From assembly GCF_001701025.1 (NCBI RefSeq), contig NZ_CP016793.1, positions 2,666,001 through 2,730,000 on the forward strand: a DNA stretch of 64,000 nucleotides. The letters run 5' to 3'. The position numbers and the translations under genes were made by a program. This document shows, in pieces, positions 1 to 7,065 of this stretch (the first letter of the stretch is position 1; every line of letters starts with the position of its first letter). The DNA is from Lentzea guizhouensis. GTDB taxonomy: Bacteria; Actinomycetota; Actinomycetes; Mycobacteriales; Pseudonocardiaceae. The notes under the pieces are model-generated. The model was not told the origin of the DNA, ran no database searches, and worked only from the letters and a program-made list of their open reading frames with translations.

Positions 1-1289
1 GGAGCAGCAGCGGCAGCAGGAGCGGCGGCGACAGCACTAGGCGCGGGGGCGGGTTGTTGGGACTTGCGGGTGAAGACCGGGGCGCCTGCTGGAACGGGGG
101 CCGTGGGGTCGCCGGGGGCCGCGATGGTGGCTGGGGGGCGGCGTTCGAGTTGTTCGAGGCGTTGCAGGAGTGCGGCTTCTGACTGGGAGACGGACGGGAG
201 GAGCATGCGGGAGCAGAGGAGCTCCAGCAGGAGGCGGGGGGCGGTGGCGCCGCGCATGTCGACGAGGCCCGTGTGGACGATCTCGGCGTAGCGGGTGAGG
301 GCGGCGGGGCCGATGCGTTCGGCTTGGGCGGACATCGTCGCGAGTTCGTCGTCGGGGGCCGAGACGAGGTTGCGGTCGGCGGCGTCGGGGACGGCGCAGA
401 GCAGGACGAGGTCGCGGAGGCGGTCGAGGAGGTCGGAGGCGAAGCGGCGGGGGTCGTGGCCTGCTTCGACGAGGCGGTCGATGGTGCTGAAGACGGCGGC
501 GCCGTCGCCTGCGGCGAGGCCGTCGACCACGTCGTTGATCAGGGCCGAGTCGGTGACGCCGAGCAGGCTGATGGCGCGGTCGTACCGCACGCCCTCCGGG
601 CCCGCGCCGGCGAGGAGCTGGTCCATCACGGACTGGGTGTCGCGGGCGGAGCCGCCGCCCGCGCGGATCACCAGGGGGAAGACGGCGGGCTCGACGGTGA
701 CGCCCTCGGCGGCGCAGTTGCGTTCGAGCAGGCTGCGCATCACGCCCGGCGGGATCAGGCGGAACGGGTAGTGGTGCGTGCGGGAGCGGATGGTCGGGAG
801 GACCTTGTCCGGCTCGGTGGTGGCGAAGATGAAGATCAGGTGGTCCGGCGGCTCTTCGACGATCTTCAGCAAGGCGTTGAAGCCCTGCGTGGTGACCATG
901 TGCGCCTCGTCGATGATGAAGACGCGGTACTTCGACTCCGCGGGGGCGTAGAAGGCCTTGTCGCGGAGGTCGCGGGCGTCTTCGACACCACCGTGGGAGG
1001 CGGCGTCGAGCTCGACCACGTCGACGCTGCCGGTGCCGTTCGGGGCCAGGCCGATGCACGAGTTGCACTCGCCGCACGGGTCGGGCGTCGGGCCCTGCAC
1101 GCAGTTCAGCGAGCGGGCCAGGATGCGGGCCGACGACGTCTTGCCGCAGCCGCGTGGGCCACTGAACAGGTACGCGTGGTTCACCCGGCCCGCCGACAGA
1201 GCGACACGCAGCGGGTCGGTCACGTGCTCCTGGCCTACGACCTCGGAGAACGTGGCCGGACGGTACTTGCGATACAGAGCGAGCGCCAC
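1..1289 (-). CDS. dnaX: DNA polymerase III subunit gamma/tau (5' part, runs off the window)
   Basis: This is the clamp-loader ATPase that opens the beta sliding clamp and couples the replicative polymerases. The GTG at 1289 begins VALALYRKYRP, the typical DnaX N-terminus. A Walker A motif (GPRGCGKTS) lies at residues 44-52, the zinc-binding cysteines are at 63, 72, 75 and 78, and a DEAH Walker B is at 127-130. About 429 residues are visible. The last ones enter an Ala/Pro-rich linker that normally leads to the tau C-terminal domains, which lie beyond the window. The SRP RNA gene sits directly upstream, a common actinobacterial arrangement. No slippery frameshift heptamer was seen in the visible part. 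Confidence 0.97.
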   Translation of the reverse strand, partial: MALALYRKYRPATFSEVVGQEHVTDPLRVALSAGRVNHAYLFSGPRGCGKTSSARILARSLNCVQGPTPDPCGECNSCIGLAPNGTGSVDVVELDAASHGGVEDARDLRDKAFYAPAESKYRVFIIDEAHMVTTQGFNALLKIVEEPPDHLIFIFATTEPDKVLPTIRSRTHHYPFRLIPPGVMRSLLERNCAAEGVTVEPAVFPLVIRAGGGSARDTQSVMDQLLAGAGPEGVRYDRAISLLGVTDSALINDVVDGLAAGDGAAVFSTIDRLVEAGHDPRRFASDLLDRLRDLVLLCAVPDAADRNLVSAPDDELATMSAQAERIGPAALTRYAEIVHTGLVDMRGATAPRLLLELLCSRMLLPSVSQSEAALLQRLEQLERRPPATIAAPGDPTAPVPAGAPVFTRKSQQPAPAPSAVAAAPAAAAA

Positions 1290-1324
1290 GCCGCAGACAG
1301 TACCGGTGGACCCCGACACAAAAA

Positions 1325-1413
1325 GGGGACCCCGTGCACCCACCAGAGCCCGCTTATCCTTGCTGCCTTCCGGCCCTGGGGAGGTTCGCGAGATGTGTGC
1401 CGCACGAGGTCCG
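1325..1413 (-). ncRNA. ffs: Bacterial small SRP RNA (4.5S type)
   Basis: On the minus strand the RNA begins GGACCTCGTGC and ends GCACGGGGTCC, so the ends pair. The apical part carries the conserved SRP domain IV core (AGGGCCGGAAGGCAGCAAGG, symmetric loop and GGAA tetraloop). It binds Ffh for co-translational targeting of membrane and secreted proteins. It lies between dnaX and the upstream MDMPI-like gene, as in other actinobacteria. A candidate -10 (TACACT, 1424-1419) ends seven bases before the predicted first G. The ends are set by pairing and could be off by a few bases. Confidence 0.93.
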
Positions 1414-1418
1414 ACGCA

Positions 1419-1454
1419 AGTGTAGCGAACGCCTTAGATCGAACGCATGTTCGA
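1419..1454 (-). promoter_or_regulatory. SRP RNA promoter overlapped by a LexA/SOS-box match
   Basis: TACACT at 1424-1419 is well placed as the -10 of the SRP RNA. The 16-bp element at 1439-1454 is TCGAAC-GCAT-GTTCGA, a perfect fit to the mycobacterial LexA consensus TCGAACN4GTTCGA, and it covers the -35 position. It lies inside the last codons of the upstream MDMPI-like ORF. LexA binding is inferred from the motif alone. Confidence 0.6.
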
Positions 1455-2006
1455 GTTGCCCACAGAGTTGTCCCCACCTGTGGACAACTTCCGGCCCGTG
1501 GCCAGCATCAACAGCTCCGGCGCAGGTAGATCGGGTACTCCGATCTCACGGAAACGCTTGCGCGCACCCCAGAACGGGCTCTTCAACACGTGTTCCAGCG
1601 CGGCCTGAGCCGGCTCGAGGGGCATCTCGCGAACGCGGCCCAGCGGGCGGGCGATGTCTTGGCCGTGGACGAGGAAGTCCACCAACGGGTCGATCGGAGC
1701 GGCCATCGGTGCCCGCTTCGGCGACGCCGCCGTCTCGCGGATCTGCGCGATCAGCTCCGAGCGGGTGAACCGTGCGGCGATCTCGCGCGCACGGCGGTCC
1801 TCCATGCGTTCCCAGTCGAATCGCGCCTTGACGATGCCCGACAGCACGTCGCCCCAGCCGGTGCGGGTGGACGTGGTCAGATGGGCGGCCATCTCCTGCA
1901 CGGTCCAGCCGGTGCAGAGGGTCTCCTGGCGCCATTCGGCGTCGGTCAGGTCTTCGAGCAGGCCGGCGACGCCGAGGCGTTCGGCCTCCAGCCACTTCAT
2001 GATCAT
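1434..2006 (-). CDS. Maleylpyruvate isomerase-type mycothiol-dependent (MDMPI N-terminal domain) protein
   Basis: A 190-residue protein of the DinB/MDMPI fold: the N-terminal four-helix bundle with the usual GWTVQEMAAHL and LVDFLVHGQDIARPLGR segments. Family members are metal-dependent thiol-linked isomerases or transferases using mycothiol; the substrate here is unknown. The ATG at 2006 overlaps the stop of the upstream sigma-factor gene (ATGA) and is preceded by GAGGAGC, so translation is probably coupled. Residues after LLMLATGR do not look like the family, and the corresponding DNA carries DnaA-like and LexA-like sites. The ORF therefore probably reads into a control region, and the tail may be a degraded C-terminus. 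Confidence 0.85.
   Translation of the reverse strand: MIMKWLEAERLGVAGLLEDLTDAEWRQETLCTGWTVQEMAAHLTTSTRTGWGDVLSGIVKARFDWERMEDRRAREIAARFTRSELIAQIRETAASPKRAPMAAPIDPLVDFLVHGQDIARPLGRVREMPLEPAQAALEHVLKSPFWGARKRFREIGVPDLPAPELLMLATGRKLSTGGDNSVGNSNMRSI
1456..1487. promoter_or_regulatory. Cluster of three DnaA-box-like 9-mers
   Basis: Within 32 bp there are TTGCCCACA (1456-1464, plus), TTGTCCCCA (1468-1476, plus) and a perfect actinobacterial DnaA box TTGTCCACA on the minus strand (1487-1479). The first two differ from the consensus by one base each. They sit immediately upstream of the LexA-box match and the SRP RNA/dnaX unit. This may be a DnaA-responsive control element; function is inferred. Confidence 0.5.
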
Positions 2007-7035: not shown

Positions 7036-7065
7036 TCGAACAAGTGTTCGATCATGGTGTATGCT
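7036..7065 (+). promoter_or_regulatory. LexA/SOS-box match overlapping a candidate promoter
   Basis: TCGAAC-AAGT-GTTCGA at 7036-7051 is a perfect palindrome and an exact fit to the mycobacterial SOS box. A candidate plus-strand -10, TATGCT, lies at 7060-7065, so the box would cover its -35 region. It lies between the divergent nuclease (start 6930) and MDMPI gene (start 7131), so either could be controlled. A second, leaderless-type -10 (TACTTT, 7118-7123) is closer to the MDMPI start. Confidence 0.6.

Follow-up and report, generated by a model that had tools for sequence, protein, structure and literature searches.

In Escherichia coli, LexA and DnaA act at the same promoters, those of uvrB, recN and dinJ, where LexA and DnaA boxes lie close together or overlap and both proteins work as repressors on one promoter (PMC6015884). 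Short DnaA-box clusters away from oriC are also known. Chromosomal clusters repress untimely initiation in Bacillus subtilis and Streptomyces coelicolor (PMC5742627), and datA of E. coli is a DnaA-box cluster with the same effect (PMC5742627, PMC10380432). The core of DARS consists of three boxes; datA works with IHF, DARS2 with both IHF and Fis, and the passages on these clusters mention no LexA box (PMC5742627, PMC10380432). In actinobacteria, ChIP-seq in Streptomyces venezuelae has given the LexA consensus tCGAAC-N4-GNNCGa (PMC9380542), and TTGTCCACA is the high-affinity DnaA box of Mycobacterium tuberculosis and S. coelicolor (PMC4285127). The main in vivo targets of E. coli DnaA are two boxes in tandem with 2 or 3 bp between them, one of which may be imperfect (PMC11317965).

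Here we describe a 49-bp element upstream of ffs, the gene for the bacterial small SRP RNA, in Lentzea guizhouensis. It lies in a stretch of 64,000 nucleotides (the window), which was analyzed as a whole and belongs to a genome of 9,997,872 bp in one contig (G000). Like the uvrB, recN and dinJ promoters, the element brings LexA and DnaA boxes together; unlike uvrB, in which several boxes are spread over three promoters of an SOS gene (PMC6015884), it is one rigid unit with a 1-bp gap between LexA and DnaA boxes, located outside Lentzea mostly between convergent gene ends. As in the B. subtilis and S. coelicolor clusters and in datA and DARS, its DnaA boxes form a short group away from oriC, three in number as in the DARS core; those clusters act on initiation (PMC5742627, PMC10380432), whereas the element is a candidate for such an effect and is origin-proximal where this was measured. 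Neither dnaX nor ffs is mentioned in the main texts of the S. venezuelae ChIP-seq study (PMC9380542) and of an M. tuberculosis mitomycin C study (PMC8151990), and the main text of the former does not mention DnaA. Among the matches listed in title and abstract searches of the open-access literature, none describes a LexA box coupled to a non-promoter DnaA-box cluster or, supplements aside, LexA at ffs or dnaX.

The composite element and the likely ffs promoter

The features of the locus are given in Table 1. Read along the plus strand, the element consists of the LexA box, 1 bp, D3 (>), 3 bp, D2 (>), 2 bp and D1 (<), with D1 appearing as TGTGGACAA. A preliminary description of this DNA had named a perfect LexA box and three DnaA-like 9-mers, one of them perfect; pattern matching returned the same box, position and motif included, and 9-mers with 1, 1 and 0 mismatches.

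Table 1. Features of the ffs-dnaX locus (positions in the window)
Feature	Position	Strand	Remarks
dnaX, 5' part (clamp loader)	1..1289	-	ORF; putative GTG start at 1289; gene runs past the window (L104)
ffs, bacterial small SRP RNA	1320..1416	-	RF00169, 64.6 bits
Putative -10 hexamer of the ffs promoter, TACACT	1419..1424	-	14 bp from the LexA box
MDMPI/DinB-superfamily ORF	1434..2006	-	PF11716, E 2.8e-12; final codons are the element
LexA-DnaA composite element, 49 bp	1439..1487	.	LexA box and three DnaA-type boxes
LexA (SOS) box, TCGAAC-N4-GTTCGA	1439..1454	.	exact match, TCGAACGCATGTTCGA
DnaA-type box D3, TTGCCCACA	1456..1464	+	1 mismatch; 1 bp from the LexA box
DnaA-type box D2, TTGTCCCCA	1468..1476	+	1 mismatch; tandem with D3, 3 bp between
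DnaA box D1, TTGTCCACA	1479..1487	-	0 mismatches; inverted to D2, 2 bp between

The LexA box fits the S. venezuelae consensus (PMC9380542), as in the actinobacterial LexA regulon. By themselves, DnaA 9-mers are unremarkable in the window (11 found against 7.5 expected, with 11 reached in 10 of 100 shuffles); what is unusual is the cluster and its conservation rather than the single 9-mers. The three boxes are spaced by 2 and 3 bp as a DnaA-box cluster would be, D3 being the exception to the consensus, and D3 and D2 form a tandem pair of the type that E. coli DnaA prefers. Across G000, inverted pairs of DnaA boxes with 2-bp spacing (up to 2 mismatches) occur in four places and tandem pairs with 3-bp spacing in six, the element included in both counts. 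At L106 (G000:C1:3311317-3311358), two perfect DnaA boxes belong to a further inverted array, near the end of a gene that looks aminotransferase-like by eye.

As a comparison with oriC, the 800 bases behind dnaA (the dnaA-dnaN region) were read in 24 Lentzea genomes. The D2 form, TTGTCCCCA, is conserved there, with 25 copies over the 24 genomes, and neither D3 (TTGCCCACA) nor the perfect TTGTCCACA was found in these stretches; D1 is therefore nearer to the published box than the oriC boxes are. D3 by itself is doubtful as a DnaA box. The same variant adjoins LexA boxes in Pseudonocardia (L284, L285 and L288) and also at L290.

On the ffs side, TACACT (read from 1424 to 1419) would place the start of ffs at 1412 and the LexA box at about -42 to -27, and thus over the -35 region, in agreement with the preliminary description. 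The case for this -10 is made by its position and its invariance in all 24 Lentzea genomes, since a consensus scan of 1200-1600 calls neither a sigma-70-type promoter nor a terminator. The ffs RNA has a predicted closing stem followed by UUUUU, and its fold does not exceed shuffles in stability (z -0.44). The putative dnaX start lies about 30 nt past this U tract, which leaves little space for a dnaX promoter of its own, and the consensus scan calls no terminator between ffs and dnaX; dnaX is probably transcribed by read-through or from a promoter within ffs. The genes dnaX, ebfC (PF02575) and recR (RecR domains) follow ffs in the same orientation, and because 617 bp separate dnaX from ebfC, a single transcription unit as far as recR is uncertain.

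Two further observations concern this region. In G000 the N-terminal and C-terminal parts of DnaX are in different frames on either side of the linker (L104, G000:C1:2661001-2667600), presumably as a result of an indel in the low-complexity linker, either real or from sequencing; the C-terminal motif is in frame in 10 of 11 other Lentzea genomes checked, among them that of L158, where the gene finishes in another frame further along, and was not found in the remaining one (L156). In the most divergent Lentzea genome, G023 (L117, L156), the ffs-dnaX interval is about 180 bp longer than in the others checked.

LexA boxes are more frequent in G000 than expected by chance, since 107 matches with at most 1 mismatch, 12 of them exact, stand against 27 for the reversed pattern. 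In front of the lexA gene (C1:376911; PF01726, PF00717) lie boxes at 376651 (exact), 376667 and 376732 (1 mismatch each), and boxes were also found at a Y-family polymerase gene (IMS domains, L059) and at a DprA-family gene (L056). Among the 15 LexA-box loci that were read (the 12 exact ones and 3 with one mismatch), ffs is the only one where DnaA boxes with at most 1 mismatch lie within 150 bp. A repeat dispersed in G000 was rejected as an explanation, since the 49-bp pattern with up to 3 mismatches was found once. The window holds a second exact LexA box at 7036-7051, between divergently starting nuclease-like and MDMPI-family genes; this box and its flank are nearly identical in G004, G009 and G011.

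Conservation in Lentzea and changing neighbors

Up to 220 nt upstream of ffs were read in 51 genomes, comprising 24 Lentzea and 27 others of the family or order (six further ffs matches lie outside the set). Lack of conservation in close relatives had been named in the preliminary description as an outcome that would speak against the sites; the element is present in all 24 Lentzea genomes with the same spacing, and the exact LexA box lies at an equal distance from ffs in each. The 27 non-Lentzea regions contain no LexA box with up to 2 mismatches and no DnaA box with up to 1. Within Lentzea, the LexA half-sites are invariant in 12 of 12 columns and the N4 between them is variable (1.12 bits); D1, D2 and D3 have mean information of 1.92, 1.90 and 1.87 bits per column, against 0.72 bits for the 38 columns upstream of the element, and conservation falls sharply one base beyond D1. 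All six columns of TACACT are invariant, and the 14-bp spacer between it and the LexA box has 1.08 bits. The three DnaA boxes all have at most 1 mismatch in 21 of the 24 genomes and at most 2 in all 24, the three that exceed 1 mismatch in some box being G007, G009 and G012. Pieces of dnaA and dnaX diverge by up to 11 percent among these genomes, so the contrast between conserved element and variable flank is informative. On this comparative evidence, both types of box are real, adjacent and conserved under selection in Lentzea.

The position at ffs appears to be confined to the genus. An exact LexA box 55 to 85 nt before the SRP core GGAAGGCAGCA was found in 24 of 390 family genomes, all of them Lentzea, and at ffs in 0 of the 366 others, a search that variant cores or boxes escape. 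A scan of the genome contigs for a LexA box, 9 to 19 nt and TACACT gave 89 stretches, and among the 80 listed, 21 are Lentzea ffs loci (20 flagged by script and 1 read directly); the script flagged none of the other 59 as ffs. Among the stretches listed (L121-L200), a LexA box with TACACT also precedes recurring gene starts in Bifidobacterium, where the gene is RarA-like by eye, and in Nesterenkonia.

In most Lentzea genomes the element overlaps the end of an MDMPI-type ORF. The preliminary description had explained the non-family tail of this ORF by the sites, and this explanation holds: MDMPI-type ORFs enter the element in frame in 15 of 24 genomes (counted by regular expression), and in G006, where another gene separates MDMPI from the element, MDMPI lacks the tail. 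The MDMPI-type frame stays open past the element in G015 and G021. Neighbors change while the element is kept: a sigma-factor-like ORF is fused to it in place of MDMPI in G007, a GH84-like gene lies between MDMPI and ffs in G012, and a TetR-like gene (G013) and a ketosynthase-like gene (G023) adjoin it elsewhere, all of these being names given by eye from translations. The possibility that the element is mere MDMPI coding sequence was rejected, since it persists where MDMPI is absent or distant. Second copies lie near the first in G001, G004, G009 and G012 (L110, L111, L112 and L115); the distal copies sit at the MDMPI end, and in G012 a gene lies between the two. Local duplication and loss would be compatible with the tree, in which many nodes are poorly supported; an att-like site was also considered.

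Recurrence outside Lentzea

The 390 family genomes were searched for exact LexA boxes that have TGTGGACAA in the next 30 bp, with the reversed pattern as a control. Matches were found in 68 genomes, and in none for the control. Three genera account for 65 of the 68: Lentzea (23 of 24), genus g42 (21 of 25) and Pseudonocardia (g5; 21 of 62). The Lentzea genome missed, G018, has the boxes with a variant D1. The remaining matches come from one genome each in g40, g66 and g9; the g40 match has only one DnaA box and the g9 match looks alike, and both may be due to chance. Genus g44 has no match to the same pattern in 80 genomes. Of 298 genomes sampled evenly across the order, 244 lie outside the family, and one of these matches (G041), with all boxes present and one spacing longer. 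Viral contigs gave no match to the pattern, and a phage origin was rejected on that account.

The 47 loci give 45 sequences that are distinct over 50 bases (G309, G031 and one G115 site are left out). DnaA boxes with up to 2 mismatches occur in these 45 non-Lentzea sequences at +17 (>) in 33, at +28 (<) in 26, at +29 (>) in 6 and at +40 (<) in 34, against a flank background of 25 in 10,980 positions. The counts at +40 and +28 are partly built in, because the search required one TGTGGACAA; the count at +17 is independent. With at most 2 mismatches allowed per box, 26 of the 45 have all three boxes in the fixed geometry (20 as > < < and 6 as > > <) and 19 lack a full trio; with at most 3, the number with a trio rises to 40 (32 as > < < and 8 as > > <), among which five trios are shifted by 4 bp and one by 1 bp in the direction of the LexA box. 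The count of windows that hold a full trio, 73 of 60,951, includes the elements themselves and hence is no clean null. The Lentzea trio is > > <, and the > < < form is the same trio turned round, which we take as evidence that the trio may work in either orientation. G115 has three element sites, and G133 and G138 have two apiece.

Mechanical gene calls at 46 non-Lentzea sites (those of g40 and G041 included) place 37 between convergent genes, 3 in +|+, 3 in -|- and 3 in divergent arrangement; one of the +|+ calls, L256, is convergent by sequence, owing to an AhpC-like gene on the minus strand. Sites within one genus share ancestry and were therefore also counted as loci: of about 13 distinct loci (by eye, g40 omitted), 8 are convergent, 3 divergent (L281, L282 and L286) and 2 co-directional (L287 and L312). 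In most g42 genomes an AhpC/TSA_2-like gene lies at the element, in Pseudonocardia a POT transporter or a GFO/IDH oxidoreductase gene faces a small gene, and in G133 and G138 (L259 and L292) an extra copy lies between glutamine amidotransferase and PASTA kinase genes. Thus the element overlaps an ORF end in most Lentzea and elsewhere is mostly convergent and intergenic. A -10 (TANNNT, 8 to 18 nt from the LexA box on the side equivalent to ffs) was found at 0 of the 46 sites and in 24 of 24 Lentzea, a weak test because the background is only 3 of 1,150. The joint control of SRP RNA and clamp loader by damage and initiation status, proposed in the preliminary description, is partly supported: the boxes are real, adjacent and conserved, lexA is likewise boxed, and ebfC and recR follow dnaX in the same orientation. 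Promoter control as the whole story is not supported, given the mostly convergent sites, the missing -10 outside Lentzea and the lack of an exact LexA box at ffs in the 366 other family genomes searched. Such joint control may be a consequence specific to Lentzea and not the basic role of the element.

In all 8 Lentzea genomes that carry the element and dnaA on a single contig, the two are 210 to 252 kb apart. In G138 the distance is 20 kb for the extra copy beside the PASTA kinase gene and 634 kb for the other site, and in G121 and G135 it is 637 kb and 635 kb, measured on contigs that begin with dnaA (3 of 18 contig starts read held dnaA). The directly measured distances thus span 20 to 637 kb in 11 genomes, a small and partly related sample; G301 would add 386 kb on condition that its contig is closed.

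Possible roles of the element

At the level of sequence, the comparison establishes a fixed geometry, conservation, reuse at mostly non-promoter loci and an origin-proximal place where measured. This raises the possibility, which we tentatively favor, that the element is a composite docking site at which a LexA dimer and a short DnaA array lie side by side, the latter gated by LexA. A LexA-gated DnaA-binding site would resemble the DnaA-box clusters near oriC (of the datA type), with an SOS input added, and the element suggests that chromosome replication may be coupled directly to DNA damage. In undamaged cells, LexA would occupy its box 1 bp from the first DnaA box and would either permit or block DnaA assembly on the trio. 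Cleavage of LexA after damage would change the state of the DnaA array, which would shift the amount or the nucleotide state of free DnaA, and initiation at oriC would be damped (or reset) during the SOS response. A brake on initiation would be the expected outcome. That an origin-proximal trio switched by LexA is a direct SOS checkpoint on initiation, bypassing transcription of a regulator gene, is a more doubtful proposal. It would be no general checkpoint, because the exact searches give no match in most family genomes or in 243 of the 244 genomes sampled from the rest of the order. In Lentzea, where the element lies over the -35 region of ffs, loss of LexA would also raise ffs and, by read-through, dnaX; a transcriptional effect at ffs is likely besides the docking role.

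Some features do not favor a docking site. In Lentzea the element is not convergent and sits on a likely promoter with unchanged spacing, as a transcriptional operator would; usually only one of its three boxes is perfect there, and D3 is not an oriC form. A purely transcriptional dual operator, with LexA repressing and DnaA activating or repressing ffs-dnaX (perhaps as far as ebfC and recR), would account for the LexA box over the -35, for the invariant TACACT and the 14-bp spacer in 24 of 24 Lentzea and for the scant space for a separate dnaX promoter. The layout at ffs allows dual LexA-DnaA repression of the type seen at uvrB, which E. coli LexA and DnaA exert also at recN and dinJ (PMC6015884). 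We nevertheless regard this as somewhat unlikely to be the full explanation, as two other genera have the LexA-DnaA unit at convergent sites, no exact LexA box lies at ffs in the other 366 family genomes and a 617-bp gap precedes ebfC. Strong repression of an essential RNA would also be costly, which counts against a purely transcriptional operator.

If the LexA part is real and the 9-mers are read by another protein, or if the whole unit is the site of one other protein, the constant departure of D2 and D3 from the DnaA consensus in most Lentzea and the absence of D3 and of the perfect TTGTCCACA from the oriC region would be explained. Such a protein is improbable, however, since D2 is conserved in the oriC region, D1 and the +40 box have the sequence published for actinobacteria (PMC4285127) and the 2-bp and 3-bp gaps fit DnaA pairs (PMC11317965). 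A small repeat or recombination site that spreads without a regulatory role would fit the second copies in four Lentzea genomes and the multiple sites in G115, G133 and G138, but what copies from different loci share is mainly the boxes, with the N4 and the linkers differing, the half-sites are invariant in Lentzea and the viral contigs are without a match; we consider this reading very improbable. That boxes overlapping by chance were passed on by descent would agree with the near-chance number of DnaA 9-mers in the window and is rejected as scarcely credible in view of box invariance against a variable flank and of recurrence in other genera with a control of zero.

To our knowledge, little is understood of how further rounds of replication are restrained after DNA damage in bacteria that are not of the E. 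coli type. With a rigid LexA-DnaA site present at several distinct loci, a direct link between repressor and initiator would become testable. At ffs, the element would, if this is true, bring SRP RNA and the clamp loader under that signal as well, and LexA-gated control of the initiator would amount to an SOS checkpoint on chromosome initiation in these actinobacteria.
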